34,571 nt of DNA. Origin: Campylobacteraceae bacterium. Lineage in GTDB: Bacteria; Campylobacterota; Campylobacteria; Campylobacterales; Campylobacteraceae. The stretch spans positions 1 to 34,571 of the forward strand of contig JAISQB010000028.1 in NCBI GenBank assembly GCA_031274495.1, given 5' to 3'. This document shows positions 3,793-33,170 of this stretch, in pieces. Position 1 is the first letter of the stretch; each line of letters begins with the position of its first letter. A program made the position numbers and the translations under genes. The notes beneath the pieces are model-generated. The model saw only the letters and a program-made list of their open reading frames with translations. It ran no database searches and was not told the origin of the DNA.

Positions 3793-3799
3793 TGCGTGA

Positions 3800-4141: not shown

Positions 4142-4170
4142 TTGACTTTTTACGCCAAAAGAGTTATACT
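4142..4170 (+). promoter_or_regulatory. Sigma70-type promoter of the resolvase-like gene
   Basis: TTGACT (4142-4147) and TATACT (4165-4170) are separated by exactly 17 bases. The predicted transcript start near 4177 lies inside the longest possible reading frame (TTG at 4118), which argues that translation really begins at the GTG at 4199. Confidence 0.6.
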
Positions 4171-4198
4171 TGACTTTTATAATAGACAAAGGCGATCC

Positions 4199-4873: not shown

Positions 4874-4887
4874 AAGAAGGACATTTT

Positions 4888-6222: not shown

Positions 6223-6231
6223 CTTTTAGCA

Positions 6232-6250
6232 GGGCGTGGGGGGGGCGCCC
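6232..6250 (+). terminator. GC-rich hairpin after ccoG
   Basis: GGGCG (6232-6236) can pair with CGCCC (6246-6250) around a G-rich loop containing a run of nine G, followed by AAAAATTT. No clear T-run follows, so termination is only possible, not certain. Confidence 0.3.
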
Positions 6251-6316
6251 AAAAATTTACAATTAGTTCACAATGTAGAGTTAATATGCCGTTACAAATT
6301 TCGTAGGAGGAAATCT

Positions 6317-6691
6317 ATGAAGATGTTTAAAACAGCAGCGATCATTTCGCTTTTGACGATGCTTTGCGCGGTAAACGCAAGTGCGTGGGGCAAAAAAGAG
6401 CAGGGTATTTTGATAGGCGCGGCTGCGGCTTTGACACTGCCGCATCTACTTAACAACCACAGATACGATTCGTCCGGATATTACAACAACAACTTCCGCT
6501 ATTCGACGGACATTTTATATGCGCGTCCAAGTGCGCCGACAGTCGTAAATAAAGTCATATACGTGGAAAAAAATGGAAATGACCCAATGCACAGAAGGGC
6601 AAAATTTCACAACTATATACACGACCAACAGCAACCTACTCGTGTTATAGTTGAACACGCTGATGGTACGGTAACCATTATAGAGAGATAA
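6317..6691 (+). CDS. Small exported protein, family not recognised
   Basis: A 124-residue protein with a Sec signal peptide (MKMFKTAAIISLLTMLCAVNASA, cleavage likely after ASA). It then has a short Gly/Ala hydrophobic stretch (GILIGAAAALTLPHLL), an Asn/Tyr-rich region (YYNNNFRYS) and a C-terminal strand-like segment (PTRVIVEHADGTVTIIER). The Gly/Ala stretch plus N/Y-rich part resembles small glycine-zipper or YXWGXW-type periplasmic proteins, but no family can be named. The start at 6317 has a strong TAGGAGG, while the frame upstream of it is open but lacks coding character. A terminator follows directly. Confidence 0.75.
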   Translation: MKMFKTAAIISLLTMLCAVNASAWGKKEQGILIGAAAALTLPHLLNNHRYDSSGYYNNNFRYSTDILYARPSAPTVVNKVIYVEKNGNDPMHRRAKFHNYIHDQQQPTRVIVEHADGTVTIIER

Positions 6692-6697
6692 AAACTA

Positions 6698-6724
6698 TTT
6701 CGGCGCCATCACTCCGCGCCGAAA
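6698..6724 (+). terminator. Stem-loop terminator after the small exported protein
   Basis: TTTCGGCGC (6698-6706) and GCGCCGAAA (6716-6724) form a perfect 9-bp stem with a nine-base loop, just after the stop codon at 6691 and before rpmI. Confidence 0.6.
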
Positions 6725-6830
6725 TACTCTCAAATTCAATCCCTCTTAAGAATTTTTCAGATAAAATTATTGGCTTTGAAAAATGTTAAGTCTAAACAGA
6801 CAGTTTTCAAAAATTATGCAAGGAGTTTGT

Positions 6831-7025
6831 ATGCCGAAAATGAAAACGGTACGCGGAGCGGCAAAACGCTTCAAATCGGCTAAAAACCGCATCAAACGCG
6901 GGGCTGCTTTTAGAAGTCACATTTTGACGAAAAAGCCCTCAAAGCGTATGCGCGGATTGAAAGAGGCAAAATATGTTGATAGCACGAACGAACGCTCTAT
7001 CAAGATAATGCTTTGCCAAAGATAG
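6831..7025 (+). CDS. rpmI: 50S ribosomal protein L35
   Basis: Large-subunit protein L35, 64 residues, very basic ([15 protein letters not shown], with [15 protein letters not shown] in the middle). The start at 6831 is preceded by AAGGAG; upstream in-frame codons belong to the leader. It is followed by rplT after 95 bases, the conserved rpmI-rplT pair. The infC gene that heads this operon in many bacteria is at 23.1 kb instead, a split also known in other Campylobacterota. Confidence 0.95.
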
Positions 7026-7065
7026 TTTATAGTTTTTGATTTAAATCATTCAGTTTTTGCAATCC

Positions 7066-7080
7066 CCCTGCAAGACAGGG
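7066..7080 (+). other. Short hairpin in the rpmI-rplT spacer
   Basis: CCCTG (7066-7070) pairs with CAGGG (7076-7080) around CAAGA, followed by the C- and G-rich stretch GTCCCCAAAGAGGGC. L20 is known to autoregulate by binding leader RNA in other bacteria; whether this small structure serves that purpose is speculative. Confidence 0.25.
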
Positions 7081-7120
7081 CAAGTCCCCAAAGAGGGCAC
7101 CAAAAGGTTAAGGAGAAAAA

Positions 7121-7480
7121 ATGGCAAGAGTAAAAACGGGCGTTATAAGACGCAGAAGACACAAAAAGGTTCTAAAACTCGCGCGCGGCTTTTTCAGCGG
7201 ACGCAGAAAACACTTTAGAAAAGCAAAAGAGCAATTAGAGAGAAGCTTAGTCTACGCATACCGCGACAGACGCGCCAAAAAGAGAGACTTCAGAAGACTC
7301 TGGATAACAAGAATCAACGCTGCGTGCAGACTAAACGACATCAGCTATTCAAGATTTATCAACGGTCTTGGCAAGGCTCAAATAGAACTCGACAGAAAGA
7401 TTTTAGCGCATTTAGCGATGAACGAACCCGAAAATTTCAGCGCAATAGTTGTCAAAGCAAAAGCTGCTTTAGAAAAATAA
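7121..7480 (+). CDS. rplT: 50S ribosomal protein L20
   Basis: Large-subunit assembly protein L20, 119 residues. It has the long basic N-terminal helix ([37 protein letters not shown]) and the globular C-terminal domain ([26 protein letters not shown]) at full family length. The ATG at 7121 follows AAGGAG. It is second gene of rpmI-rplT and is followed by a strong hairpin. Confidence 0.96.
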
Positions 7481-7492
7481 TTTATCATACCG

Positions 7493-7527
7493 CTCTATCT
7501 TCACGGCAACCGCCCACGAAGATAGAG
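7493..7527 (+). terminator. Stem-loop terminator after rplT
   Basis: CTCTATCTTC (7493-7502) and GAAGATAGAG (7518-7527) form a perfect 10-bp stem 12 bases past the rplT stop. No long T-run follows. Confidence 0.6.
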
Positions 7528-7671
7528 TCACCATCCATTTATCCCTTCACGGTTTTAATTTTAAATAGCATATTTTTTAACAAATCCGGAAATCTTTATA
7601 CGAAAATATTCAAAGTAATAGCGCCGTAATATATGGGGTTCCGGAGCAAATCCTGCGCTTTGGGCAAATAA

Positions 7672-7892
7672 AATTCGCATCAATTTCTCTGTCAGTCAAA
7701 GTGGTATCGGGTCATAAAAAGCTTTGAAGATTATGATGGACATATTCATCCCAAAGGGGAGGGGTAGATGTTTGTGATGACGGATGTGGTTTGTATTATT
7801 TGACGGAAAGTTTAAATATGCAGTGGGATAAATTTTCGCAAGACATTATCATTGATTCGCTTTCTGAATATATTATTGAAAAAAGTAGGTAA
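7672..7892 (+). pseudogene. Frameshifted relic resembling a DUF3601-type protein
   Basis: Two adjoining open stretches in different frames read as one family-like block. 7672-7767 encodes KWYRVIKSFEDYDGHIHPKGE and then stops; 7764-7892 continues as VDVCDDGCGLYYLTESLN and then MQWDKFSQDIIIDSL...EYIIE. The pattern Y-x-V-I-x-x-F-x-DYDG-x-x-HPxGE, then DDG-L, then QW, then YI recalls the small DUF3601 family as I remember it. There is no start codon or ribosome site, and part of the middle appears missing. The rest of 7528-8174 shows no gene. Confidence 0.4.
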
Positions 7893-8098
7893 GAAATAGC
7901 GGCACTTTTTCATATTTATGTGATGATGGAGCCACTAAAGGCAACGAATATCCTCTCTTATTTTAGCCCATCACATTTTCCATTTTGACCAATCGGACTT
8001 ACAAGGCACGACAATTTTATAATCAAACGATACGATAAGGATTTTTTATTGAACAAAGTCTTGGCGCGGGGTTGCATATTTTCTTCAAATAGCCATAA

Positions 8099-8118
8099 GG
8101 AGCGCTTTTAGAACGCTC
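8099..8118 (-). terminator. Stem-loop downstream of ilvD
   Basis: GGAGCG (8099-8104) and CGCTCC (8113-8118), with weaker pairing extending into the loop, lie about 55 bases past the ilvD stop on its strand. It is probably the ilvD terminator. Positions are hand-counted to within a base or two. Otherwise 7893-8174 holds nothing I can support. Confidence 0.35.
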
Positions 8119-8174
8119 CGAACTCTCGTTTTACTTGTGTAGCTTTCACCACTAAAATATACGCGCCGCTTTTG

Positions 8175-9851
8175 TTATTCAGTTTTTAAAACCGCGCCGT
8201 TGCTGGCATTGGTGACGAGCTGGCGATACTGTTTTAGCCAACTGCTCGTGATATTTTTGACTTTCGGTTTGAAATTGGTGCGTCTGGAGGTTATCTCCTC
8301 TTCGCTTAAAACGGCGTTTATTGTGTATTTATCCACATCTATCTCTATAATATCGCCGTCTTTTAAAAGCCCGATAAGTCCGCCCTCAGCTGCTTCAGGG
8401 CTTACGTGTCCTATGCTAAGACCTCTTGTCGCGCCCGAAAATCTTCCGTCCGTTATAAGTGCCACATCGGCACCCAACCCCATACCGACGATGAGCGAGG
8501 TGGGAGAGAGCATCTCTTGCATTCCCGGACCTCCCCTTGGTCCTTCATAGCGCAAAACGACCGCGTCGCCTTTTGTGACCTTACCGCCCGTGATGCCTTT
8601 TATCGCATCTTGCTGTGAGTCAAAACAGACCGCTTTGCCCCTAAAACTTCTGCTTCCGATGATGCCCGCCGCCTTTATAACGCAGCCTTCAAGAGCTAAA
8701 TTGCCAAATAGTATCGCAAGTCCGCCCACTTTTGAGTAAGCGTTATCGAGCGTATGGATGATAGTGGTGTCTTTTATATCCGCGTTTTTGATGCGCTCGC
8801 CTATACTTTCACCTGTTACCGTGAGGTTGTCAAGATAGAGTGTGCCGTTGTCAAGTTTGGCTATCTCATTCATAATGGCATTCATACCGCCCGCCCTATT
8901 CACATCTTCCATATGCACCGTGCCCAAAGATGGGGCGACTTTGGCGATGTGGGCTATCTTTTTGCTTATCTCGTTGATGTCTTTGATGTTGAAGTTTACA
9001 CACGCTTCTTTGGCGATTGCGAGCATATGCAGTACGGTATTGGAGCTGCCACCCATAGCCATATCCACGGCAAACGCGTTTCGTATCGCCTTTTCATTTA
9101 AGATATTGCGTATATTAAATCTCTCGTCAAGCGCGATTTCACAGACTCTTCGCGCCGCTTTTCTTATCAACTCTTCGCGCTCTTTTGTCAGAGCCAATAT
9201 CGTACCGTTGCCGCTAAGTGCGATACCCATCGCCTCCATAAGCGTATTCATAGAGTTTGCCGTAAACATTCCCGAACACGACCCTCCACCGGGACACGCG
9301 CGGCACTCTATGTCGTGCAACTCCTCTTCACTTATCTCGCCTTTATTATATTTGCCGACAGCTTCAAAGGTGGAGTTCAGATCCAGCGCCTGCCCCTCTT
9401 TATCGTGCCCTTTGCTCATCGGTCCGCCGCTCACAAAGACGGTGGGCACATTGACCCTTAGTGCGCCCATTATCATACCGGGGACTATCTTGTCGCAGTT
9501 TGGGATACAGATAAGCGCGTCCAGACAGTGCGCGTTCATCATAGACTCAACGGAGTTTGCGATAATCTCGCGGCTTGGCAGTGAGTAGAGCATCCCATCG
9601 TGCGCCATAGCGATACCGTCATCTATGCCGATAGTGTTAAACTCAAACGGCACACAGCCCGCGTTTCGTATCTCCTCTTTGATAATCTCCGAATATTTAT
9701 TGAGAAAAAAATGCCCTGGGATTATCTCTACAAATGAGTTCGCCACGCCGATAAACGGCTTTTTAAAATCCTCATCTTTAAGCCCCGCAGCCCTTAGCAA
9801 ACTTCTGTGCGGAGTTCTATCGGTCCCCTTTTTTATCATATCGCTGCGCAT
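8175..9851 (-). CDS. ilvD: Dihydroxy-acid dehydratase
   Basis: IlvD dehydrates 2,3-dihydroxyisovalerate and 2,3-dihydroxymethylvalerate to the 2-keto acids of valine, isoleucine and leucine synthesis. It is 558 residues, the normal length. Fe-S and active-site motifs are present: [12 protein letters not shown] near residue 120, [17 protein letters not shown] near 190, [10 protein letters not shown], and [12 protein letters not shown] near 450 followed by [10 protein letters not shown] and [11 protein letters not shown] at 9851 (MRSDMIKKG) follows AAGGTTGGATTT. It stands alone on the minus strand, with no other ilv or leu genes in the window. Confidence 0.96.
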
Positions 9852-9923
9852 AAATCCAACCTTGTTTAAATAAAATGAGGCGTTATTATAACAAACTATA
9901 ATAAAAAACGGGATAAGTAGAGA

Positions 9924-9947
9924 TAAGCCCGCGGCTTTGCGGGCTTA
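9924..9947. terminator. Stem-loop terminator after the unassigned exported protein
   Basis: TAAGCCCGC (9924-9932) and GCGGGCTTA (9939-9947) form a perfect 9-bp stem with a six-base loop, 10 bases past the stop of the minus-strand gene that ends at 9957 and upstream of ilvD. It separates the two transcription units. Confidence 0.7.
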
Positions 9948-9956
9948 AGGTGGAGA

Positions 9957-10778
9957 TTAAAGTGAGGGTCTATTGCCTTTTGTCTCTTTAATTAGTTTTT
10001 GTCGGTCTGCTTCTATTTTGTCGTAAACATCTTTATGGTTTATCATAGCAATACGAAACGCCATTATTAATCCTGTTTTTGGTTCAATATGAGGATATAC
10101 TCTTATCTCTCTACCGCATTTCTTGAATATAGTGCTTTCCGTAGGCGGCGTATAAAACACAAAATCAATTTTAGTCATATAGCCACACCCACCAAATTGT
10201 TTCTCTGAACTATTTGCTGCTCGAAAAATTTGTTCCCCATTTCTGTCATAAAACCATACAAGAATTGTTGGACCAGATACATACGATGGTCTACCATATT
10301 TTTCAAATATAGAGTCGTAAAAAGCTTGTATGCTTAAATAATCTTTTTCTTGAAAGCTTTGTCCCCTGATAAGATAAAATACTTTACCATAATCATCTTC
10401 TGAGATGGTGAATACATCTCCATCATACATCCCCGGTGAAGTGGTGAATTCACCCCTTACACCATACTCTCCGTTTACAGAAGTACCGATACTCCGAGGA
10501 ATAGACTTATCAAATTCCTTAATTTTATATTTTGAATTAATCGATTTTAGTTTTTTTGCTATATCTATAGAGCTTCCTATTTTAATGCCAGCGATATCAA
10601 AATTTTGTTTTGAGATAGTATCTTTTAGTGGCGCATTTTTAATTTTTATCTTTAAATCATTATGCAACTGAATCTCTTCATAAAAACTCGTAATATCAGT
10701 CTCCTTTTCAGCGGCATATATCGCACCTATCCCTACCCCTATCAAACACACACAAAGCGCAATATGTTTAATATTCAT
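9957..10778 (-). CDS. Exported protein of unknown family
   Basis: A 273-residue protein with a signal peptide (MNIKHIALCVCLIGVGIGAIYA, cleavage after YAA likely). The mature part has a helix-strand start (IAGIKIGSSIDIAKKLKSINSKYKIKEF), then YFLIRG-like strands (KVFYLIRGQSF), a YDSIFEKYGRPSY segment and two well-spaced cysteines (GGCGYMTKIDFVFY and KKCGREIRVY) that could form a disulfide. The pattern G-I-K-I-G-x-x-x-x-x-A, then F-Y-D-x-I-F-x-K-Y-G-x-P, is seen in assorted periplasmic proteins that I cannot name. AAGGAG precedes the ATG. It is more AT-rich than ilvD and isolated, so it may be acquired. Confidence 0.75.
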   Translation of the reverse strand: MNIKHIALCVCLIGVGIGAIYAAEKETDITSFYEEIQLHNDLKIKIKNAPLKDTISKQNFDIAGIKIGSSIDIAKKLKSINSKYKIKEFDKSIPRSIGTSVNGEYGVRGEFTTSPGMYDGDVFTISEDDYGKVFYLIRGQSFQEKDYLSIQAFYDSIFEKYGRPSYVSGPTILVWFYDRNGEQIFRAANSSEKQFGGCGYMTKIDFVFYTPPTESTIFKKCGREIRVYPHIEPKTGLIMAFRIAMINHKDVYDKIEADRQKLIKETKGNRPSL

Positions 10779-10917
10779 AACTACTCCTTGATTAATTGAA
10801 TAAAATATTTGATTTTACCTATCTGTATCTATATGCGTGCTTAAATATTACAAAGATAGACAAAGAATACCAGTCGACATTTTTACAAAAAAACAGTTGC
10901 GCGCGGGGCTTTTTTAC

Positions 10918-15688: not shown

Positions 15689-18379
15689 ATGGCTACAAAT
15701 TTTTCAAGGGGTTCGGAATGGAGAAAGTGGGATTTGCATATTCATACCCCAAATTCAATTTGCCAAGAATACGGAAATACTCAAGAAGGCTGGGATAAAT
15801 TTATTAATGCATTAGAAAACTTGTCTATTGAGGTTAAAGTTATTGGCATTACTGATTATTACTTCATTGATGGCTATAAAAAAGTAATGGACTACAAACT
15901 CAAACACAATAAATTAAAAAATATTGATAAAATTTTTCCCATTCTCGAATTTAGAATTGATACTTTCGGTAGCGGAAGCGAAAATAATCTTCAAAAAATT
16001 AATTTGCATGTTTTGTTTGATATAAACGAAAATGATATAGCAACTGAAATAAGGCAAGTAGAAGAAGAATTTATTAAACAAATTCCTATAACTAAATTGG
16101 AGAGGCATAAAACAAAGTGTTTATCGATAGAAAATTTAACTCAAGAGGGCAATAATAATTTACAAAATGGTTTTAGCAGTTTAGTTCCACCTACCGACAG
16201 AGTTTTTGAATTACTAAATAGTCCAAGATGGAAAGATAAATGCTTTCTTTTTTTGGGCTATAAAGAATGGAGCAATTTAGAAAAAAACCAACAACTAAAA
16301 CCTTTGAAAGATGATTTGTATTCAAAAGTTGGCGCATTTTTGGGAAATAATTTTACCACTAATAAAAATAATCAAGAGTGGTTAAATAGCTTTGGCAATA
16401 AGAAGCTACTTCATTCATTAGATATCCATAACTTCACTGACTTGGATAGTTATGAATTTGATGAAAATGGCAATCGTAAGCCTATAGAAAGATATCATTG
16501 TAACACTTGGATTAAAGCTGATCCCACATTTGAAGGATTAAAACAAATTTTATATGAGCCAGAAGAACGAGTTAGAATACAAGAAAATAATCCCGCCTTT
16601 GATTTTGAAAAATCGCCGTTTACGGAGATTCAAATAAGTGAAAGGGTTGATGTTTTTGAAAATGAGCAAGATAATGTAACATTTGAAAAATGTGTCTTGC
16701 CATTAAATAGTAATTTAGTTTCAATCATTGGAGGCAGAGGAACTGGAAAAAGTATTTTAATCGATTATATTTCGACAGGATTAGGACAGAGCAATAGAAG
16801 TATAAGCTATACCAAAAGCGATAGAATAACTATCAAGCGACAACCTTCCTTGAATGACGAGCCCATTCCTTTTGTAATTTCAAATAAGCCGAATATTCCA
16901 TTCATGTATATTTCTCAAAGCGAAATTAAAGGAATAGTAGAAAAGCCGCAGGAATTTACAGAGAATATTAGAAAGACCATAGGCGTTATCGATAATTATA
17001 TAGTTTCTACGGAATACAAAGCAAAAGCAAATAGATACACGAATGAATATTCTGAGATAACCAAAATACTTGATACAAATAGTCAACAAAAGAAAGACGA
17101 GATTGATAAAGAAATAAAAAAATATAATGATTTTATTACAAATATAACTTCTAAGGAAAATAAACTTAAATTAAAAAATTATCAAAAACATTTAAATGAT
17201 TTATCGGAAAGAAAAATATTTTACGAAAAATTACAAAATCAAAAGAGATCCATAAGAGAATTCGAAAAGGAAGTAAATAGCAATATAGAACAACTAAACA
17301 AAGCTCTATTAGAAGTTGATAGCAACATAAGTATTCCTTGTGTTAACAATAGTACTACAATAAATTATATTACACAAACAGCATTGCCCAAAATTAAAGA
17401 GCTAATAGACAATGCAGAAAAAGAAATACAAAAAACAAAAGACGCCTTTAAAGGTTATACAGGAGATTTAACAACTTTATTGAGTGATGTGGCACTTTAC
17501 CAAAACAAGGTAACCGAATCTCAAAAACAAAAAACGCTTTTAGAAGAAAACGAGAAAAAATTTGAAACAATAAAACAAAATTACTTTAAGGAGCTTGGCA
17601 CAGAGATTGAGAGTGGCATCAAAGCCTATAAGCAGGAAATTGAAGATAAATGGAATAATTTCAAAAATGGAAGTGGTGGTTATTCCGAAGAGCAGAAACG
17701 ATTGCTTTCAGATATACTCGGTGAAGACAACCTGAATGTATCTGTTGAAATAAGTTTTAATGCAGAAAAAATGTATCAATTGCTTTTAGAAAAGCTAGAT
17801 CGTCGTTCTTGGAGCAAGGAGAAATTAGAAAACACTCTCAATGTAAGCAATTTGGATAAGTATATCGACTTTATCAAGCAAGCTTCTGATCCAAATGCTT
17901 TTAGTGATGCCGTTATCCCAATTAGAGATTGTGTGTTAGATGCATTCTTCACAAAATACATCGAGTTTATAACGCATAATATAGTTGTCACTTCTCAAAA
18001 CAAAAATATCACAAAATTATCTCGCGGACAACAAGGTACAATTTATTTACGTTTGAAATTAGCCGCAAACTTATTTAGTAAGACCATTATTTACGACCAA
18101 CCGGAAGATGATTTGGATAATGAATTTATTATGTCTGATCTGGTTTCAATTTTCAGGAAAATCAAAAAATATAGACAAGTAATCATTGTTTCTCATAATG
18201 CCAACCTTGTGGTAAACGCGGATTCCGAACAAATTATTATTGCCAGAAACGAGGAAGGAATTTTAAAGTATACTTCAGGTTCACTAGAAGATCCTGAAAT
18301 AAATGAGCAAATATGTAAAATTCTTGAGGGTGGCAAAACGGCATTTTTGAAACGAGAAAAAAAATATGGCTTTAAATAA
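15689..18379 (+). CDS. TrlF-type protein: PHP domain fused to SMC/Rad50-like ATPase
   Basis: An 896-residue protein. The N-terminus has a PHP phosphoesterase signature WDLHIHTP (His17, His19) with VIGITDYYFIDGYKK downstream. An ATPase follows: Walker A GGRGTGKS at residues 348-355, a long coiled coil (about 420-690, very Lys/Glu/Asn-rich), the ABC signature LSRGQQGT at about 777, Walker B/D-loop IIYDQPEDDLDN at about 803 and the H-loop VSHNANL at about 838. This is the TrlF family AAA-like ATPase layout. PHP-SMC proteins are often found in mobile or defence loci, so a nucleic-acid nuclease role is inferred. GAGGAG precedes the ATG. The gene is clearly more AT-rich than glmM-lspA and stands alone, suggesting transfer. 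Confidence 0.85.
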   Translation: MATNFSRGSEWRKWDLHIHTPNSICQEYGNTQEGWDKFINALENLSIEVKVIGITDYYFIDGYKKVMDYKLKHNKLKNIDKIFPILEFRIDTFGSGSENNLQKINLHVLFDINENDIATEIRQVEEEFIKQIPITKLERHKTKCLSIENLTQEGNNNLQNGFSSLVPPTDRVFELLNSPRWKDKCFLFLGYKEWSNLEKNQQLKPLKDDLYSKVGAFLGNNFTTNKNNQEWLNSFGNKKLLHSLDIHNFTDLDSYEFDENGNRKPIERYHCNTWIKADPTFEGLKQILYEPEERVRIQENNPAFDFEKSPFTEIQISERVDVFENEQDNVTFEKCVLPLNSNLVSIIGGRGTGKSILIDYISTGLGQSNRSISYTKSDRITIKRQPSLNDEPIPFVISNKPNIPFMYISQSEIKGIVEKPQEFTENIRKTIGVIDNYIVSTEYKAKANRYTNEYSEITKILDTNSQQKKDEIDKEIKKYNDFITNITSKENKLKLKNYQKHLNDLSERKIFYEKLQNQKRSIREFEKEVNSNIEQLNKALLEVDSNISIPCVNNSTTINYITQTALPKIKELIDNAEKEIQKTKDAFKGYTGDLTTLLSDVALYQNKVTESQKQKTLLEENEKKFETIKQNYFKELGTEIESGIKAYKQEIEDKWNNFKNGSGGYSEEQKRLLSDILGEDNLNVSVEISFNAEKMYQLLLEKLDRRSWSKEKLENTLNVSNLDKYIDFIKQASDPNAFSDAVIPIRDCVLDAFFTKYIEFITHNIVVTSQNKNITKLSRGQQGTIYLRLKLAANLFSKTIIYDQPEDDLDNEFIMSDLVSIFRKIKKYRQVIIVSHNANLVVNADSEQIIIARNEEGILKYTSGSLEDPEINEQICKILEGGKTAFLKREKKYGFK

Positions 18380-18459: not shown

Positions 18460-20094
18460 CTAGGGTAGCTCTTTTGTGCGGCATTTTTTGAATATATCGT
18501 ACTCTTTTTTATATACTTTTGTTTCGATTTCAAGTAGTCCCAAAAACGAGTGAAATATATTGTCGTGGCTGTATGCATCGGTCTTTGCCGCTTCTTGCAT
18601 ACAGCTGTAATCAATATAGTCCTGTTTTTGCATATTTTCAGACATCCAGAGTATCATCGGCACTTTTGTCTGCTCTTTGGGGGCTATCACATAGGGCATA
18701 CCGTGCAGATAGACATTGTTTTCGCCCAAAGACTCCCCGTGGTCTGAGATATACATAAGACCCGACTCAAAATCCGGAAATTTCCTCAAAGTGTCAATGG
18801 TCTTTGATATGATGTAGTCCGTGTAGAGTATCGTGTTGTCGTAGGTGTTGACTATCTCCTCTTTGGAGCAGTTTTGTATCTGGGCTGTGTCGCAGGTGGG
18901 TTTGAACACCTTAAACTCATCCGGATATCGTTTGTAGTAGGTGGGTCCGTGGCTGCCCATCGCGTGTAAAATTATAAGAGTATCTTTTGTGATATTTGAT
19001 AGATACCCTTCAAGTCCTTCTATGAGCACCTCATCAAAGCAACTCTCCTTATCGCAAAATTTATCACTGTTTTTCGACCCCAGCATATTTTCGGTCGGCA
19101 CTCTATCACAAACGCCCTTGCAGCCGTCGTCATTATCGCGCCAAAATATATCGTATCCGGCGTTTTTGGCTATGTCTAACAGATTTTCCGTATATTTGGC
19201 GCTTGTTACATCAAAATATTCGCGGTCTGCATTTGAAAACATACAAGGCACGGAGATCGCCGTCGCAGTCCCGCAGGAGAGGACATTTTTAAAGCTTATG
19301 ATATCCTGCTTTGCAAGGTTGGGGTTGGTATTTTTCTCATATCCGTTGATGTAAAAGTTATCGGCTCTGGCGGTCTCCCCTACGATGAGCACCACAACGG
19401 TTTTATGCGACTCTTTAAATGGCGCTACTTTGGCGTCGGGGTCCAAGCGCACAAATTCCCTATTAGTAAGGGCGCGCCGCTGAAAATACCTTACCGTCGA
19501 GTAGGTATAATTTATAGTATTGAGCAGTTTGCGCACTTCTCTATTGTTTCTGCCGAACGATGTGTACTCTTTATAGGAAGCGGCAGCGGTCGTTAAGAGT
19601 ATCAGCAAGCTTGCCGCCGCCGACAAAATCCGTATTTTCAGTTCGCGCTTCACCGATGCGTAGCGGATGGTCGTGAAAGCTAAGATAACGGAGGGTACGA
19701 CGCCCGTGACAAAAACCCACAAAAATCCCCACACCGTGATGAGGTCAAACGCCTCTCTTTTGGTCGTTTCAAATATATTGGTGATCATATCCGTATCTAT
19801 AAAGACGCCAAACTCATACATATAATAGTTAGCCGCGCTTGATATGAGCAAAAAGAGGGTGATGAGGGGCTTGGCTAAAAATGGAAGTGTTACGATGCTA
19901 AGCAGAAGATAGAACGGCGTTAAGATGAAAAAAATCAAAGAGAACGCGAAAATCACCATCTGAAAGCTGCCTATCTCAATGTGCCCCGATACGAAACGCC
20001 AAAAACTTAAATTTAGCACGAAACCAAAGTAGAGTGTCAGTATAATGATTAATATGCGGCTGTCTATCGCCAATTTTGATAGTAGTTTTGTCAC
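18460..20094 (-). CDS. eptA: Phosphoethanolamine transferase (EptA/EptC family)
   Basis: An inner-membrane enzyme that transfers phosphoethanolamine from phosphatidylethanolamine to lipid A and related acceptors; in Campylobacter jejuni the homologue EptC also modifies the flagellar rod protein FlgG. It has 544 residues. Five membrane helices fill residues about 10-175, then a periplasmic alkaline-phosphatase-fold sulfatase domain follows. The nucleophile Thr is in VVLIVGETARADNFY, with LSCGTATAISVPCMFS, the disulfide-rich WRDNDDGCKGVCDR, LHAMGSHGPTYYKRYP and the metal ligands in YISDHGESLGENNVYLHG. It is on its own between the TrlF gene and tRNA-Ser. The acceptor in this organism is unknown. 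Confidence 0.92.
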   Translation of the reverse strand: MTKLLSKLAIDSRILIIILTLYFGFVLNLSFWRFVSGHIEIGSFQMVIFAFSLIFFILTPFYLLLSIVTLPFLAKPLITLFLLISSAANYYMYEFGVFIDTDMITNIFETTKREAFDLITVWGFLWVFVTGVVPSVILAFTTIRYASVKRELKIRILSAAASLLILLTTAAASYKEYTSFGRNNREVRKLLNTINYTYSTVRYFQRRALTNREFVRLDPDAKVAPFKESHKTVVVLIVGETARADNFYINGYEKNTNPNLAKQDIISFKNVLSCGTATAISVPCMFSNADREYFDVTSAKYTENLLDIAKNAGYDIFWRDNDDGCKGVCDRVPTENMLGSKNSDKFCDKESCFDEVLIEGLEGYLSNITKDTLIILHAMGSHGPTYYKRYPDEFKVFKPTCDTAQIQNCSKEEIVNTYDNTILYTDYIISKTIDTLRKFPDFESGLMYISDHGESLGENNVYLHGMPYVIAPKEQTKVPMILWMSENMQKQDYIDYSCMQEAAKTDAYSHDNIFHSFLGLLEIETKVYKKEYDIFKKCRTKELP

Positions 20095-23749: not shown

Positions 23750-24400
23750 GGACAACGGATATCCATCAAAACGGTAATTGAGGCAGAAAAAACCTATATA
23801 TGTGGTAGATTATCAATAGGGATCGATCGCGCTCGCGTATGCTTTTTGCCTTATCGACCCGCATTGTGCATTTATTCAAGTAAAAAGGGCGAGGAGCTAC
23901 TTGACTTATCAACTTACATATATGGTAGATTATCCAATTCTCGCGCCCACTTTCCATTCTTAGGACAACTTATTAACTTATATATGTGGTAAATTATCTA
24001 TTCGGAAACATAAACGCGGCGGGGAATTTTTCTATCTTGTCAAACTCGTATGTATATGGTAGATCATCCACATTGAAGGATTGGTATACTATCTTCTCCA
24101 CGCTCTGCCTATCAACCCATATATATAGTATATCATCCATATGATATTTTACCACCCTACCCGCGCCTCGACAAAGCTACTTGATTGAAAAAGTTACGCT
24201 GGCATCGTCGGATTATCAAACTCGCACCAAAGCCTCAACCCGCGAAGAGATTTTACACAAAATAGATGCTTCCACCCCGCGGTTAGTATAGAAAAAGCAT
24301 ACGAACAGCTTGTTAAACTGTATGTGCGGCATATTATCCACTATGTGTCCTCCTATTTTAAAACTAATGGATTTGCATAGGCATTGTTAGCTTATCAAGT
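23750..24400. repeat. Degenerate interspersed repeat array, 60-70 bp period
   Basis: Copies of a roughly 20-32 bp motif recur. Clear ones end at 23816, 23936, 24000, 24070, 24139, 24219, 24340 and 24398, with weaker ones near 23765, 23879 and 24274. The plus-strand consensus is CTTATCAAC plus TATATATGGTAGATTATCCA, with AT-rich cores. Successive copies are 55-80 bases apart, and two gaps of about 120 are each halved by a weak copy. Intervening sequence differs between copies. Copies diverge strongly, with several mismatches each. No gene is seen in 23655-24363. The last copies (24211 and 24390) each carry a similar flank, TCGCACCAAnnCnnAAnCCGC, that also resembles katA read in reverse. Confidence 0.65.
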
Positions 24401-24729
24401 TCGCACCAAGTCCCAATCCGCAAGAAGATTTTATACATTTGCCGCACTGATGTCCGTTTCCATACAAAATAGACACCGCGCCCATTCAATATCTTATCTG
24501 CGTACACCGCCGCGCCGCGCTCTCCCGCGACTGTAGAAAATCCGATAAGAGCCCTCCCCTTTTGCGATGCCGAAGTTTTCGTATAGCGCGAAATATCTTT
24601 GGCGATATTTAGCACGCTGCCTTTGGCGTGAACGACCCGTTCAGCCATTATGCCAAGCCGTGCCGTTTGCAAATCGCGCTCAAACTTTGAATCTACTTTT
24701 TGCCCGCCCAAATAAACCCCTTGCAACAC
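24364..24729 (-). pseudogene. Decayed inverted copy of the katA N-terminal region
   Basis: The minus-strand translation contains [25 protein letters not shown] and [12 protein letters not shown]. These line up with katA residues about 48-100 ([37 protein letters not shown]). The DNA is also closely similar, for example GGTCGTTCACGC and GATATTTCGCGCTATAC. The copy has small deletions (GAFGAL after AKGS, ETTRV), loses frame after the AGERGAA block, and then carries ATTGGGACTTGGT, the katA NWDLV codons, out of frame. Everything beyond about residue 125 of KatA is missing. It is arranged back to back with katA, so it is a partial inverted duplication or the remnant of a second catalase gene. It cannot encode an active catalase. 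Confidence 0.75.
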
Positions 24730-26311: not shown

Positions 26312-26758
26312 ATGGACGAAGCAAAAAGGTACGAGGAGCTGCAACTACTCGCTCTTGATTTTGCCAGATACGCCAACACCGACGAGTTAAAGGTTATGCT
26401 TTTGGCAAAACTCCCCGTCAATCTTTGCGACCACAAAGGCAACACTCTGCTTATGTTATCCGCGTACAACGGCAACGCCGACACGACGAAAATGCTCATC
26501 GAGATGGGCGCTGATGTGAACCGTAAAAACGACAGAGGACAGACCCCGCTTGAAGGGGTCTGCTTCAAGGGTTATCTCGATATAGCCAAACTCTTGGTGC
26601 AAAACGGCGCCGCAGTTAATGGCACCAACGCCATTATGTGCGCGTCGATATTCGGCAATCACAACATAGTCAAATACCTAACGCGCCAAAAAACGGGCTT
26701 TAAGACAAAACTCTATCTCGCACTTGCAAAATTTATATCGCTTTTTAAGAGAGCATAG
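26312..26758 (+). CDS. Ankyrin-repeat protein, catalase partner
   Basis: A 148-residue cytoplasmic protein built from about three to four ankyrin repeats: KGNTLLMLSAYNGNADTTKMLI, then EMGADVNRKNDRGQTPLEGVCFKG, then YLDIAKLLVQNGAAVNGTNAIMCASIFGNHNIVKYL. It starts two bases after the katA stop, so the two are almost certainly co-translated. In Campylobacter jejuni the equivalent gene (Cj1386) next to katA takes part in heme delivery to catalase, and Pseudomonas has an AnkB beside KatB; the same role is inferred here from position and fold. Confidence 0.88.
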   Translation: MDEAKRYEELQLLALDFARYANTDELKVMLLAKLPVNLCDHKGNTLLMLSAYNGNADTTKMLIEMGADVNRKNDRGQTPLEGVCFKGYLDIAKLLVQNGAAVNGTNAIMCASIFGNHNIVKYLTRQKTGFKTKLYLALAKFISLFKRA

Positions 26759-26815
26759 CAAAAATCTCTTGCACTTTTTGTTTTATAATAAATAAAATTT
26801 TTCGCACAAGACGCA

Positions 26816-26833
26816 CATGGTTACAAAACCATG
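26816..26833. terminator. Hairpin in the ank/hxsC convergent junction
   Basis: CATGGTT (26816-26822) and AACCATG (26827-26833) form a perfect stem with a four-base loop, between the stops of the ankyrin gene and hxsC. On the minus strand a short A/T-rich run follows further on. Possible terminator for hxsC. Confidence 0.35.
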
Positions 26834-26866
26834 CAACAAGCATATATAGCAAAATGTGACAGCATT

Positions 26867-28030
26867 TTATAATATTTTATGCTTTCTCGTGTCATCTACG
26901 ATAGCTTGTATTTTATACTTGGATATTTTCGTTGTAGAAAAAACACCCTGACAATTCTCTGCCTTTATACATAAACGGCACTCTTCCAAATAACTTTGCT
27001 TCCATTTGGAAATAGAATTCTTCACAAAACCCCACAATCTTTTATCTATCAAACAGAATGGCATATTATATATTGATACATTCATATCTCTTTGCTTTAA
27101 ATAGATGATAGCGTCAAGCAAGTTTTTATTGAACTCTTTTTGTGAGATATCTATTTCTGCAAAATTATCATAAGCATTGCCTATAATCTCAAGTCCCATA
27201 AATGTGACATGAACAACAAATGGAAAATTTCTATAAATAAACTCCGCTATTTGGGGCAATCTATCACAGTTTTGCTTCATAATAACTACCCTTAGCTCAA
27301 CCATTTGCCGCAATAAACCCAAATTTTGTATAGCACTTATTGTATCGGTAAAGCTTTGCACGCCCATAATTTTATTGAAATCTTCCATATTGTCACTTGG
27401 AAATGATACGCAAAAAGTTATATTGTGATTTAATAATGCAAGCTGTTTGGCATAGCTAAACTCTTTTAGCTTTCTACCGTTGGTCAATAAATCTATCCTT
27501 GCAAAAGGAAATATTTTTTGGGCATGTTTCAATAATGAACACAGTTCTTCTGATTTTAATGTTGGTTCTCCACCGGTAATGGCAATGCATTTTATATTTT
27601 TCTTAGCTAAATAACTCAATATTGCTTTATTGATTTCAAAAAATGAGTGTTCGTCTTTTCTTGGAGGCTGCGGACACATAATACAGTTTGCATTACATTG
27701 GTTTGTAACAAAAAGAGTTAAATCGTCATGATTAAGAATTTTATCCCACAATACATGTACGATACCATTTGAATAAATTTCTACAATATCCCCATCTTTT
27801 AAAGAATCAAAAAAGGTATCTTTAATATCGTATACCAATGGCTTATTGCCTATATTTTGCACTAAACTTGAGCTATTCGACAAATAAATACTATGACCAA
27901 AAGTAAAACAATTCGTTTTTCCAATATATGCTGTTTTGACTTTACATTTTAAATTGATTTTTGATGAAGAAACCACTGCGGTAATAAAATTGACGTCTAA
28001 ATTATTTATTTTTGCTCTGGTTGCTATCAT
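26867..28030 (-). CDS. hxsC: His-Xaa-Ser system radical SAM maturase HxsC
   Basis: A 387-residue radical SAM enzyme, predicted to modify the HxsA precursor peptide. Residues about 1-105 form an HxsC-specific N-terminal domain. The [4Fe-4S] motif CNANCIMC is at residues 112-119, followed by PQPPRKDE and ITGGEPTL (SAM binding), features I associate with HxsC. Later cysteines ECRLCIKAENC near the C-terminus could hold an auxiliary cluster. The ATG overlaps the hxsB stop by four bases (ATGA), so translation is coupled. It is the last gene of hxsA-D-B-C and is AT-rich relative to katA. The modification itself cannot be read from sequence. Confidence 0.88.
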   Translation of the reverse strand: MIATRAKINNLDVNFITAVVSSSKINLKCKVKTAYIGKTNCFTFGHSIYLSNSSSLVQNIGNKPLVYDIKDTFFDSLKDGDIVEIYSNGIVHVLWDKILNHDDLTLFVTNQCNANCIMCPQPPRKDEHSFFEINKAILSYLAKKNIKCIAITGGEPTLKSEELCSLLKHAQKIFPFARIDLLTNGRKLKEFSYAKQLALLNHNITFCVSFPSDNMEDFNKIMGVQSFTDTISAIQNLGLLRQMVELRVVIMKQNCDRLPQIAEFIYRNFPFVVHVTFMGLEIIGNAYDNFAEIDISQKEFNKNLLDAIIYLKQRDMNVSIYNMPFCLIDKRLWGFVKNSISKWKQSYLEECRLCIKAENCQGVFSTTKISKYKIQAIVDDTRKHKIL

Positions 28031-29478
28031 ATGGCAATCTCTTTTACATTTTTTTTATTGATCCAGCTCCAAAAAACATTCATAGCATCAACATTGTTCT
28101 TTTTCACTATATCTAACAAATAATCAAAAATAAGCATATTTCTTTTGCAAAAGCCGCTATCAGGTCTAAAGCCTGTCAAATCTTTATATTCTGCGTAATT
28201 TCTTATGGGATCACTACCGCAATACATATTAAAAACACAATGATGGCAGCCTGGCATTGTTTGCAATATGGACGACTTGGTGATATTAACAAGTTTTTCC
28301 GAGTAAAATATTTCACTGTAACTATTTTTTATCACATTGCCTATACAAAAATTATTATCCCCCATGCGTGCCAACATACGTGCTTCATCTGTTGGGTACA
28401 CATTGCCGTCAAAATCATACATTACACCACTAATGCCTGCACCTGCCGGACTTTGCAAATCAACAAAACCTGTAGAAAAAGGTGTTAAAATTCTTCTCAT
28501 AAGTAAGCTGGAATAATAATCAACAAAAACTTTGCCATTCAGGTTTAAACTAATTATATAATTTAATGCTTTTATATATTCATTTATAAACTCTTCTATG
28601 CTATATCCAAAATCAATATTATCTAAATCTTTGGCTCTGCCATACGGATTTAATGGTCTAATAAATATACCGTCAAATTCCAATCTAATATATTCGTCTA
28701 TAACCTCTTTTAGTCTATATAAATTTTTACTCGTAACTGTTAGCAATGCCCCTACGCTATTATGCCCCAACACTTTTCTAGTTAAAAATAATTTTTGCAC
28801 AAAGGTGTTATAACTTCCTTTATTGCCATATGTTACCCTATGGGCATCATGCATTTCTTGCGTGCCGTCAAGAGATGTAGATATGATAACTTTATATTTT
28901 TTGAGAAATTCTAGTTTCGATTCATCCATAAGTGTCAAATTTGTACATAAGATGATTTCAATTGATTTATCCTCATGCTCTAAATTTTTCTGGTATGATT
29001 TATCGATTATGTATTTACACAAGCCCCAATGCGTAAGAGGTTCGCCGCCTTGTAACTCAATTTTTATATATTTAGAAGCTGTCTGAAAAATCATTTCTAT
29101 AATTTTGTCAATCGCGTCTTTATTAAATACATTATGTCTATTGTATTTGTCTGTATCACAAGATGCTGTGGACGCATGACAATAAGTACACCTCAAATTA
29201 CACAATGTTGTTGTTTCAATCATATGCAAAGAGGTAAAATTTAGCAAATACTGTTGCTTTGTGCGTATTTGGTTTGCCAATAATTCTATAACAGAATGAA
29301 GTTCTTCTAAATCATTGTAGATAAAAAATTTAGATTTCAATGTTTTAAATGTTGATGTATCTTTATCTAAAGTATGCCCAAGTAATTGCTCAAACTCTAT
29401 GCTATCAATAAAATAGTGTTCGCCAGCATAATTAACAAGCAGTATGCAATCATTATATCTTTTAAACGCGAAAGGCAA
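28027..29478 (-). CDS. hxsB: His-Xaa-Ser system radical SAM maturase HxsB
   Basis: A 483-residue radical SAM/SPASM peptide maturase. An N-terminal RiPP-recognition-like region (FKRYNDCILLVNYAGEHYF, residues about 5-70) precedes CNLRCTYC at residues 93-100. ELQGGEPLTHW (SAM) and the SPASM region (PGCHHCVFNMYCGSDPIRNYA, then GFRPDSGFCKRN) follow. The TTG at 29478 is the only common start codon in frame and has no good ribosome site. The reading frame continues upstream without stop as HIKIGNYNFLPFAF, which looks like family sequence, so the true start may be an unusual codon near 29500. It overlaps hxsC by four bases. Confidence 0.88.
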   Translation of the reverse strand: MPFAFKRYNDCILLVNYAGEHYFIDSIEFEQLLGHTLDKDTSTFKTLKSKFFIYNDLEELHSVIELLANQIRTKQQYLLNFTSLHMIETTTLCNLRCTYCHASTASCDTDKYNRHNVFNKDAIDKIIEMIFQTASKYIKIELQGGEPLTHWGLCKYIIDKSYQKNLEHEDKSIEIILCTNLTLMDESKLEFLKKYKVIISTSLDGTQEMHDAHRVTYGNKGSYNTFVQKLFLTRKVLGHNSVGALLTVTSKNLYRLKEVIDEYIRLEFDGIFIRPLNPYGRAKDLDNIDFGYSIEEFINEYIKALNYIISLNLNGKVFVDYYSSLLMRRILTPFSTGFVDLQSPAGAGISGVMYDFDGNVYPTDEARMLARMGDNNFCIGNVIKNSYSEIFYSEKLVNITKSSILQTMPGCHHCVFNMYCGSDPIRNYAEYKDLTGFRPDSGFCKRNMLIFDYLLDIVKKNNVDAMNVFWSWINKKNVKEIAI

Positions 29479-29507
29479 AAAATTATAGTTACCAATTTTA
29501 ATATGGT

Positions 29508-29801
29508 CTAAAATAAATTTTTTTTTACGGAAGAGTATGCGTACTCTGTAATAATATCTCGTATATGGTTAGACTTTTTGGCAATGTCCTGTCTTATTTG
29601 ATAGTCTATGACTTTATTATTAAAGTTACTAATTTCTTTATTGTCATAATTATCATTTTTCGGTTCGAAGTAGGCATAAAAATAGTTATCAACTGCCTCT
29701 AGTTTAACATAATATAGCCCAGAATACTCATATAGTGCCTCTTGAATAGCCTCCTTGCTGAAAAGGGCGCTATCCACCTTAATGCAACATGTATTACTCA
29801 T
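29508..29801 (-). CDS. hxsD: His-Xaa-Ser system protein HxsD
   Basis: A 97-residue protein matching the small HxsD component: strands at the N-terminus (CCIKVDSALFSKEAIQEALY, YYVKLEAVDNYFYAYFEP) and a helical C-terminus (NFNNKVIDYQIRQDIAKKSN, then HIRDIITEYAYSSVKK). The N-x-V-x-D-x-Q-x-R block followed by I-R-x-x-I is the recognisable part. It probably helps present the precursor to the maturases, but its role has not been established. CAGGATAG precedes the ATG. It lies 23 bases after hxsA and about 29 before the annotated hxsB start. Confidence 0.82.
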   Translation of the reverse strand: MSNTCCIKVDSALFSKEAIQEALYEYSGLYYVKLEAVDNYFYAYFEPKNDNYDNKEISNFNNKVIDYQIRQDIAKKSNHIRDIITEYAYSSVKKNLF

Positions 29802-29824
29802 ATAAACTATCCTGATAATTTTAA

Positions 29825-30079
29825 TTAATATGGATAATATGATGAAGTATGGGAACTATGAGAGCTGTGGGAGCTATGCGAACTATGAGAGCTATGCGAA
29901 TAGTGGGAACGATGCCATGCCATATCCATATTGTTATTATTCTTCTGAAAATCTATATTGTGCTCTAACACTAGAACAGACTGTTCGTCAATAGCAGAAA
30001 TGGCATCAGCATTGTTTGTAGTTGCCGATACGTTAGATATGCCCAAAGTTGCCATAAGCAAAATTAAAAACTTTTTCAT
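29825..30079 (-). CDS. hxsA: His-Xaa-Ser repeat precursor HxsA, eight HxS triplets
   Basis: An 84-residue precursor peptide. A Sec signal peptide (MKKFLILLMATLGISNVSA) is followed by an acidic spacer (NNADAISAIDEQSVLVLEHN), then DMAW and eight back-to-back His-Xaa-Ser triplets: HRS, HYS, five HSS and HTS, ending SYYPY. The repeat codons vary (CAT/CAC, AGC/AGT, TCT/TCC/TCG), so the repetition is kept by selection at protein level and is not a recent DNA duplication. The start at 30079 fits AAAGGG and the signal peptide; the upstream frame is not needed. It is first in the hxs operon, with the two radical SAM genes downstream. Confidence 0.9.
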   Translation of the reverse strand: MKKFLILLMATLGISNVSATTNNADAISAIDEQSVLVLEHNIDFQKNNNNMDMAWHRSHYSHSSHSSHSSHSSHSSHTSSYYPY

Positions 30080-30095
30080 AAGAACCCTTTTTATT

Positions 30096-30107
30096 CTCCC
30101 ATGGGAG
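30096..30107. promoter_or_regulatory. Perfect 12-bp palindrome upstream of hxsA
   Basis: CTCCCATGGGAG lies 17 bases upstream of the hxsA start, just before its ribosome site, in an otherwise very AT-rich leader. It could be an operator. A TATAAT (30134-30139, minus sense) is the best -10 candidate further up. Confidence 0.35.
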
Positions 30108-30272
30108 GTTTTTCTATACATACTTGAAAATAAATTATATTACTTATATTCTTATGGAAAACTTATATATAAGGATAAATATGCTAAATTTACTAGAAAT
30201 AATAATATAAAGAATAAAAAAAATAAATTTTTTTTAAATATAGCGTGCAAATGCAAAATATTATAAAATGAA

Positions 30273-30395
30273 ATGGGTCAACTTGAAGTAGCTCTTTTTA
30301 TTGGTCGTCTATCGGCAGATTTTTATGTTGGTATAGAAAATTACTCGTATGAAAAACATTCTAATCTAAATAATTTTTATCAAAATGTTTTATGA
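30273..30395 (+). CDS. Possible 40-residue ORF or gene remnant
   Basis: ATG at 30273 opens a 40-codon frame (MGQLEVALFIGRLSADFYVG, then IENYSYEKHSNLNNFYQNVL). It reads like protein but has no ribosome site and no recognised family. It sits in the AT-rich 402-base gap between hxsA and the YbaK-like gene, which otherwise holds the hxs promoter region and nothing else I can support. It may be a relic left by insertion of the hxs block. Confidence 0.2.
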   Translation: MGQLEVALFIGRLSADFYVGIENYSYEKHSNLNNFYQNVL

Positions 30396-30523
30396 TGATA
30401 AGATTTTTTACTTTGCACTCTTTTTATGTGTAAACATCTTTTGCCACAACAATTTTCACCCCAAAATCTTTACTTGTATACCAAATTTTGCTAAACTCAT
30501 TTTTTTCATTTAAGGAGTGAGCG

Positions 30524-30988
30524 GTGGGGATAGAAAAAGTGAGGGACTTTTTTAAAGAGTTTGGCGAAGAGATAATAGAACTTAAACTATCAAGCGCTAC
30601 CGTAGAGTTGGCGGCGCGGGCGTTAAATTGCGAAGAGAAGCGCATAGCAAAAACTCTCGCGTTCAAAGCGGGTGATAAAAATATACTCATCGTCACGGCG
30701 GGCGACGCTAAGATAGACAACGCCAAATACAAAGGCTATTTTAAACTCAAAGCCAAGATGCTCTCCCCTCAGGAGGTTTTGGAAAACATTGGTCACGAGA
30801 TAGGCGGAGTTTGCCCTTTTGGCGTGAATGATGGCGTTACGGTATATCTGGATGACTCTTTGAAGCGCTTTGATACCGTATTTCCCGCGTGCGGAAGTAA
30901 CAATAGCGCGATAGAACTCTCCATAGAAAAGTTAGAGCGCTACGCCGGCGCTAAAGAGTGGGTGGATATCTGCAAAGATTGGAGATAG
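30524..30988 (+). CDS. YbaK/EbsC-type aminoacyl-tRNA deacylase
   Basis: A 154-residue protein of the YbaK/ProX editing family, which hydrolyses mischarged Cys- or Ala-tRNA-Pro. Family blocks are ELKLSSATVELAARALNCEEKRIAKTLAFK, ILIVTAGDAKID, KLKAKMLSPQEV and GHEIGGVCPFG. The start is GTG at 30524 with AAGGAG six bases upstream. The following thioesterase gene is 36 bases downstream on the same strand. The family is clear; the exact substrate is not. Confidence 0.88.
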   Translation: MGIEKVRDFFKEFGEEIIELKLSSATVELAARALNCEEKRIAKTLAFKAGDKNILIVTAGDAKIDNAKYKGYFKLKAKMLSPQEVLENIGHEIGGVCPFGVNDGVTVYLDDSLKRFDTVFPACGSNNSAIELSIEKLERYAGAKEWVDICKDWR

Positions 30989-32024: not shown

Positions 32025-32077
32025 CGCAACTAAGTCGCATTTTTATATGATTTTACAAATCTTGCGACTAAGTTGCA
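32025..32077. promoter_or_regulatory. Paired 15-bp palindromic operators (probable Zur boxes)
   Basis: CGCAACTAAGTCGCA (32025-32039) and TGCGACTAAGTTGCA (32063-32077) are two versions of the pseudo-palindrome TGCRACTWAGTYGCA, centres 38 bases apart. They fall in the 122-base divergent region between the regulator start and znuA, one near each gene. The A/T-rich stretch between them probably holds the promoters. Confidence 0.65.
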
Positions 32078-32096
32078 CAAAACGAGGAGTTTGATG

Positions 32097-33170
32097 ATGT
32101 TTCGCGTTGTAATTTTTATATGTTTGGGGGCATTTATGCTCTACGCAAAGCCCGTAGTTACGGTCAGCATCCTGCCTCAGCAATATATGGTAGAAAAGAT
32201 CGCCGGCGATACGGTGGATGTTTTGGTGATGGTCGCGGCAAGTGCCAATCACGAGACTTACGAACCCAAACCCAGCCAGATGAAGCTCTTGGCAAAATCG
32301 GATATATATTTTACGATAGGACTGCCGTTCGAGAGGGCGTGGCTCGATAGATTTACCGCCGCTTCGCCAAAACTTAGCGTAACGGATGTGGGCAAGGGTA
32401 TCGAAAAGATCGGGCTGGAGGATCATCATCACGACGCGCACGAGCACGAACATAATGTGCACGCGTATCACGATGATGACCACGAGTATAGCTCACACGC
32501 AGACCACGATGATGAACACGACGCTCACGATGGGCACGAACACAGTGCACACGCAAGTCACGATGCGCACGATAAACACGCAGACTACGACAGTGAACAC
32601 GAGCATAGCACACACGCGGAGCACGACGATGACGAACATAATGCACACGCAAGTCACGAACACGGCACTCACGCGGATCACGATGCGCACGAGCTTGACC
32701 CGCACATCTGGCTTGACCCTGCCCTCGTCAAAATTCAGTCCAAAACCATCGCCGACACTCTATCTCTCAAATACCCGCAAAATGCCGCGCTTTATGCGAA
32801 AAATTATGAGAGTTTTTCAAAAGAGTTGGACGCGCTGGACGCTAAGCTCTCCAAAAAACTCACCGCGCTGAAAAACAGAAGCTTTTTTGTATTTCACCCT
32901 TCGTGGGGCTACTTTGCCAAAAGGTACGGTTTGGAGCAGATATATGTCGAGGTTGAGGGACGAGAGCCCAAAGCCGCCGAACTTATCGAGATATTGAAAA
33001 AAGCGAAAGAGAAAAATATCAAAGCTCTTTTAGTTGAGCCTCAGGTTTCAGAAAAAAACGCTAAAATAGTCGCCAAAGAGATAGGGGCAAAGCTCATCAA
33101 AGTGGACCCTGTCAAAAAAGATGTGAGCAAAAATTTGGACGAGGTGGCAGATATGCTGTTGGGAATTTAG
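32097..33170 (+). CDS. znuA: Zinc ABC transporter substrate-binding protein with long His-rich loop
   Basis: A periplasmic zinc-binding protein, 357 residues. A signal peptide (MFRVVIFICLGAFMLYAKP) precedes the cluster A-1 fold: VTVSILPQQYMVEKIAGDTV, the first ligand in SANHETYEPKPSQM, the second in DPHIWLDPA, the third in FHPSWGYFAKRYGL, and an acidic ligand near EPQVSEKNAK. Residues about 110-198 form a His/Asp/Glu insert with about 30 His, far longer than the loop of most ZnuA proteins. ATG at 32097 is chosen over 32094 for spacing to GAGGAG. First gene of znuACB; its regulation is probably through the upstream boxes. Confidence 0.92.
   Translation: MFRVVIFICLGAFMLYAKPVVTVSILPQQYMVEKIAGDTVDVLVMVAASANHETYEPKPSQMKLLAKSDIYFTIGLPFERAWLDRFTAASPKLSVTDVGKGIEKIGLEDHHHDAHEHEHNVHAYHDDDHEYSSHADHDDEHDAHDGHEHSAHASHDAHDKHADYDSEHEHSTHAEHDDDEHNAHASHEHGTHADHDAHELDPHIWLDPALVKIQSKTIADTLSLKYPQNAALYAKNYESFSKELDALDAKLSKKLTALKNRSFFVFHPSWGYFAKRYGLEQIYVEVEGREPKAAELIEILKKAKEKNIKALLVEPQVSEKNAKIVAKEIGAKLIKVDPVKKDVSKNLDEVADMLLGI

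Follow-up and report, generated by a model that had tools for sequence, protein, structure and literature searches.

A probable horizontally acquired His-Xaa-Ser peptide modification cassette (hxsADBC) in a Campylobacteraceae genome

An hxsADBC operon of the His-Xaa-Ser system was found in the genome of a Campylobacteraceae bacterium, on the 34,571-nt stretch of DNA analyzed here (contig JAISQB010000028.1, positions 1 to 34,571; referred to as the window). The operon is real, complete, and intact, and it is likely a horizontally acquired cassette under selection that makes a RiPP-like exported peptide. Its four genes are consecutive on the minus strand and comprise hxsA (29825 to 30079), encoding an 84-amino-acid precursor; hxsD (29508 to 29801), encoding a 97-amino-acid accessory protein; hxsB (28027 to 29478, with a TTG start), encoding a radical SAM/SPASM maturase with a predicted N-terminal RRE-like domain; and hxsC (26867 to 28030), encoding a second radical SAM maturase. 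The gaps are 23 nt between hxsA and hxsD and 29 nt between hxsD and hxsB, and hxsB and hxsC overlap by 4 nt, in keeping with the close or overlapping spacing given in the preliminary description. The block is flanked by ank (26312 to 26758, plus strand) on one side and a YbaK-like gene (30524 to 30988, plus strand) on the other, so that its neighbors, katA-ank and the YbaK-like gene, are the ordinary genes first named, and its GC content of 31.5%, against roughly 44 to 50% in the flanking genes, is as AT rich as had been described.

HxsA contains a predicted Sec-type signal peptide, a leader with the segment VLVLEH upstream of the repeats, eight His-Xaa-Ser units, and the tail SYYPY, which upholds the earlier reading of a secreted repeat precursor. 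Translation probably begins at the ATG at 30079, which AGGG precedes by a few bases. An in-frame ATG farther upstream, at 30121, has no evident ribosome-binding site and would place residues ahead of the signal peptide. The predicted signal peptide, MKKFLILLMATLGISNVSA (30023 to 30079, minus strand; residues 1 to 19, with the cleavage site placed by inspection), contains two Lys followed by a hydrophobic stretch (hydropathy of 2.4 over 12 residues). A hydrophobic N-terminal stretch after basic residues was present in all 19 HxsA precursors compared, and judging from hydropathy, HxsA is probably exported by Sec. The core (29843 to 29914, minus strand; residues 56 to 79) consists, in order, of HRS, HYS, five units of HSS, and HTS. 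Neither this HxsA nor that of the closest relative, L004 (Campylobacteraceae MAG Po218_bin111), contains a single Cys.

Across 19 HxsA proteins, encoded on plasmids, on phage-like contigs, or in genomes, the repeat comprises 5 to 8 contiguous units. Position 3 is Ser in 123 of 123 units and Thr in none, while position 2 varies; since the parse demanded His at position 1 and Ser or Thr at position 3, what is informative is the choice of Ser over Thr and the fact that the three-residue period never breaks. The His and Ser codons vary synonymously between the units of the window hxsA, and the same pattern persists in a homologue whose synonymous sites are saturated, so it is the protein pattern that is kept; the repeat as an accident at the DNA level is thereby ruled out. 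Among short HxsA proteins, 9 of 12 have Tyr, Trp, or Phe as the final residue, a short distance past the last repeat (the window, L004, L016, L048, L050, L051, L052, L054, and L022).

Model matches for all four proteins had been proposed as the supporting check. HxsB, HxsC, and HxsD exceeded their NCBIfam cut-offs, but HxsA matched the HxsA4, HxsA2, HxsA, and HxsA3 models weakly and passed none of these four families (accessions TIGR03979, NF038296, NF038309, and NF038313 in numerical order), with its best match, NF038313 (HxsA4), at 31.9 bits against a cut-off of 55. Nine other short precursors likewise fell below the cut-offs, and the window protein is therefore not assigned to a named HxsA subtype. 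Its identity as an HxsA is nonetheless clear by eye from the apparent signal peptide, leader, eight units, and aromatic tail. The long HxsA of L017 carries a peptidoglycan-binding domain (PF01471), which the window HxsA lacks.

HxsB and HxsC are two distinct maturases, as first proposed. HxsB scored 506 bits against TIGR03978 (cut-off, 370) and HxsC scored 289 bits against TIGR03977 (cut-off, 268), and these scores far exceed those against other radical SAM families, which removes the concern that the two proteins might fall in unrelated families. A PF04055 match above cut-off and the CxxxCxxC motif in both proteins place them in the radical SAM superfamily. Alignments of 11 to 16 diverse HxsB and HxsC sequences revealed four invariant Cys in each protein beyond those of the motif. 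In HxsB, the motif is CNLRCTYC (C93, C97, and C100) and the further residues are C411, C414, C420, and C444; in HxsC, they are CNANCIMC (C112, C116, and C119) and C326, C351, C354, and C360. From these conserved sets, each enzyme probably holds a catalytic cluster and one auxiliary cluster.

The predicted model of HxsB (pLDDT, 86) places three strands (residues 3 to 8, 11 to 16, and 21 to 25) and three helices (26 to 33, 42 to 49, and 57 to 74) ahead of the barrel, a layout that is RRE-like in the model. Its closest solved fold is CteB (5WHY; E value, 4e-21), in a near-full-length alignment of 462 columns, followed by anSME (E value, 2e-17), TigE, ChlB, and SuiB. CteB also ranked first in a sequence-profile search with HxsB. 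Beyond its own family, the nearest NCBIfam families are PapB and the sulfatase maturases, both scoring above the known cyclophane formers, a ranking that counts against the crosslinking chemistry favored below. These matches bear on the main rival chemistry, in which formylglycine would arise from the invariant Ser of every repeat through oxidation by one or both enzymes, leaving the peptide with a series of aldehydes in place of crosslinks. Among NCBIfam models, that of the anaerobic sulfatase maturases ranks third for HxsB (E value, 1.3e-29), and anSME is the next fold after CteB; moreover, residue 3 is always Ser and never Thr, and the oxidation would likewise cost 2 Da per unit. anSME has two auxiliary clusters, however, and HxsB has fewer Cys than anSME, with only four invariant ones beyond the radical SAM motif. 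Formylglycine formation would also leave the equally regular His unexplained, and we regard it as improbable.

We tentatively favor a carbon-carbon bond from His C2 to the Ser Cβ at i+2, forming a row of three-residue cyclophanes, a proposal made by analogy that may well prove wrong. Radical SAM/SPASM enzymes are known to link His C2 to the Cβ of Ala or Arg, and Phe (C4) to the Cβ of Ser, in an i,i+2 arrangement (PMC11002830), and this precedent fits the strict three-residue period with its fixed positions 1 and 3. It has also been observed that TvgB introduces 2-Da losses repeat by repeat on TVGG repeats (PMC9062424). Thioether chemistry, as in sactipeptides and ranthipeptides, is excluded, because HxsA offers no Cys donor. 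It counts against the overall explanation that nothing found here gives a reason for the need for two radical SAM enzymes. A search of open-access full texts (subscription journals lay outside the search) is in line with the earlier statement that neither a product structure nor a role is established: it turned up no biochemistry of the His-Xaa-Ser system, and no product or role was found in the searchable literature.

HxsD scored 64.5 bits against TIGR03976 (cut-off, 50). Its model (pLDDT, 88) has a predicted order of β-α-β-β-α, and no confident structural relative was found in the PDB (best E value, 0.02). We considered HxsD as a discrete, free-standing RRE and rejected it, as the fold order is wrong, no RRE was among the matches listed, and no PDB match was confident. 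In the mechanism we propose, the leader strand VLVLEH of HxsA would dock on HxsB, at its RRE-like N-terminal domain, in the cytoplasm, where HxsB would form one bond per unit with HxsD as an adaptor, a role that is a guess, and HxsC would add a second type of change. The signal peptide would then take the modified peptide via Sec to the periplasm or the surface and be trimmed by signal peptidase, so that no dedicated protease or transporter would be needed. A row of cyclophanes would render the product stiff and rod-like, studded with imidazoles and perhaps able to bind metal or the envelope.

The suggestion that the block looks inserted gained support on two grounds. In three genomes of the same genus (G405, G411, and G320), katA, ank, and ybaK are contiguous, and the interval between ank and ybaK is about 95 to 130 bp, compared with 3,765 bp in the window (26759 to 30523). 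In addition, the closest relative, L004 (HxsB, 70% identity; HxsC, 68% identity), carries its hxsADBC cassette after sppA, in a block of 31.3% GC next to a flank of 44%; an argH-like gene (named by inspection) directly follows sppA in G320 as well as in the genome of the window, with no hxs genes between. Two congeneric species thus hold related cassettes at different sites, and the empty ank-ybaK sites together with the relative's location elsewhere support insertion. The same evidence speaks against an artefact of assembly or binning, by which a foreign piece was joined into a Campylobacterota bin. Such a join would account for the GC content of 31% against 44 to 50%, but the flanks on the same contig keep the katA-ank and ybaK order of the genus and the same cassette is present in another congeneric assembly; we consider it extremely improbable.

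The block is bounded by a perfect 16-nt inverted repeat, with one arm, AAAATATTATAAAATG, at the hxsC end (26863 to 26878, minus strand) and the other on the ybaK side (30255 to 30270, plus strand). None of 1,000 shuffles exceeded 14 nt, for a repeat that was chosen after the fact and overlaps the hxsC stop, and the 1.8-Mb genome contains exactly two copies of the 16-mer, namely the two arms. The repeat was not seen at the edges of the L004 block, and as for a target-site duplication, the longest direct repeat between the flanks is only 8 nt. Given the post hoc choice, the overlap with the stop, the lack of a target duplication, and the absence at L004, the repeat is only suggested as the end of a mobile element. 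The window copy comes without an integrase or transposase gene. The combined picture of eight continuous His(C2)-Ser(Cβ) cyclophanes, an exported poly-imidazole rod, and a small cassette, bounded by 16-nt inverted repeats, moving between sites in the genus is unlikely to hold as a whole. Beside the insert, at 30273 to 30395 (plus strand), lies a 40-amino-acid apparent remnant of an HTH regulator (XRE-like by inspection); elsewhere in sister genomes the regulator has about 100 amino acids, and the window genome yielded only this fragment.

Codon divergence from the congeneric L004 copy shows a pattern of purifying selection. The dN/dS values are 0.09 for hxsB and 0.13 for hxsC, both rough since synonymous distances are high, and in hxsA and hxsD synonymous sites are saturated, with 0.19 to 0.26 nonsynonymous differences per site.

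The Hxs system is sporadic in the host genus, with HxsB in 3 of 14 genomes, and rare in the phylum, with HxsB in 3 of 397 sampled Campylobacterota genomes, one copy lying beside Tn7-like transposition genes. The window is not the sole case in the phylum; the system is also found in two further genera besides its own. In the tree of HxsB plus HxsC, the window and L004 copies are sisters (support, 100/100). The congeneric copy of G404, with the order D-B-C-A, lies outside the clade of six sequences to which both belong, and the G030 copy, a long branch, falls with Klebsiella elsewhere in the tree and adjoins TnsA, a Mu-type transposase, TniB, and TniQ, which make up a Tn7-like element. In L017 (positions 2903 to 10896), from a Campylobacterota genome other than that of the window (24% GC), an hxs operon is found beside Tn7-like transposition genes and an N6 DNA methylase gene, and a TnsA gene lies near the hxs operon on the Aeromonas plasmid L025. 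HxsB was found in 343 plasmid records (316 from Klebsiella), and the system also occurs in a Leptospira phage and in IMG/VR contigs. A single-sequence query of viral contigs gave no close relatives; an alignment query gave 21 contigs, of which the last four matched other radical SAM proteins weakly. Published work describes Hxs genes alongside genomic-island genes in Pseudomonas aeruginosa and as varying between strains in Vibrio parahaemolyticus (PMC8446631, PMC6537148). From the plasmid, phage, Tn7-like, and genomic-island occurrences, the inserted cassette is a common state of Hxs.

Carriage on the 343 plasmid records, the Leptospira phage, IMG/VR contigs, and the Tn7-like element that also bears a gene for a DNA methylase would suit cargo for inter-bacterial competition or anti-phage defense, with a mature peptide that harms rivals or blocks entry. 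The operon, however, has no immunity, transporter, or protease gene, and PADLOC gives only a general radical SAM similarity to viperin, so this role seems unlikely. The window holds another AT-rich gene (15689 to 18379, plus strand; 29 to 31% GC), which encodes an AAA-like ATPase of the TrlF family (NF045780, 481 bits; cut-off, 350) whose C-terminal part resembles the anti-phage protein Ppl. The gene was not found in L044 at the corresponding stretch after lspA and, being AT rich as well, is a second probable island. It adjoins a gene for an EptA-type lipid A phosphoethanolamine transferase (18460 to 20094, minus strand; NF028537 above cut-off). A degenerate catalase gene fragment (24364 to 24729, minus strand; PF00199 below cut-off) lies just upstream of intact katA, on the opposite strand.

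The peptide could also serve mainly to bind Zn, Cu, or Ni in the periplasm, with the modification tuning affinity, a role compatible with either chemistry. The eight regularly spaced His of HxsA would suit it, and at a distance of 1 to 3 kb there are znuA and genes for a Fur-like regulator and an ABC ATPase; the ZnuA-like protein (32073 to 33170, plus strand) has an unusually long His/Asp-rich loop. Yet the same neighbors occur in the sister genomes L041 and L044, which have no hxs genes at that site, and hxs operons elsewhere adjoin unrelated genes. Proximity to the zinc genes is therefore probably coincidental, and we rejected the zinc-uptake genes as part of the system; the metal-binding role itself is possible, though rather doubtful.

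The His-Xaa-Ser system is widespread, including on hundreds of Klebsiella plasmids. The window copy is among the simpler ones, with four genes, an 84-amino-acid Cys-free precursor, and nearly uniform HSS repeats, which takes thioethers off the list and offers a simple mass-spectrometry readout. A clean natural comparison is offered by the pair of congeneric copies together with the empty sites.

The kind of system is known; the host, the short precursor, and the documented insertion are new. The His-Xaa-Ser system is defined by NCBIfam TIGR03976 to TIGR03979 (HxsD, HxsC, HxsB, and HxsA) and credited to Haft and Basu in the citation given in PMC9062424. The window copy resembles it in that HxsB, HxsC, and HxsD pass their models, an H-x-S repeat protein is encoded alongside, and the order A-D-B-C is that of Leptospira plasmid pLiSL34 and Paraburkholderia pSYMBR3459. 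It differs in its short HxsA, without the C-terminal peptidoglycan-binding domain of the long forms and below the HxsA cut-offs. The SCIFF thioether maturase CteB (5WHY/5WGG) shares with the HxsB model a predicted RRE-like domain, radical SAM barrel, and SPASM-type C-terminal part, but HxsB has only four further invariant Cys and a Cys-free substrate, so no thioether. The triceptide formers HaaB, YhhB, and MscB (3-CyFEs) act on i,i+2 pairs that include His and on Phe-x-Ser (PMC11002830), whereas Hxs combines 5 to 8 repeats in tandem with a pair of radical SAM enzymes and HxsD, and its cyclophane is putative. In the TvgB poly-cyclopropylglycine system, a repeat core is modified unit by unit (PMC9062424), as we propose for Hxs, but with Val chemistry and by a different radical SAM cluster.
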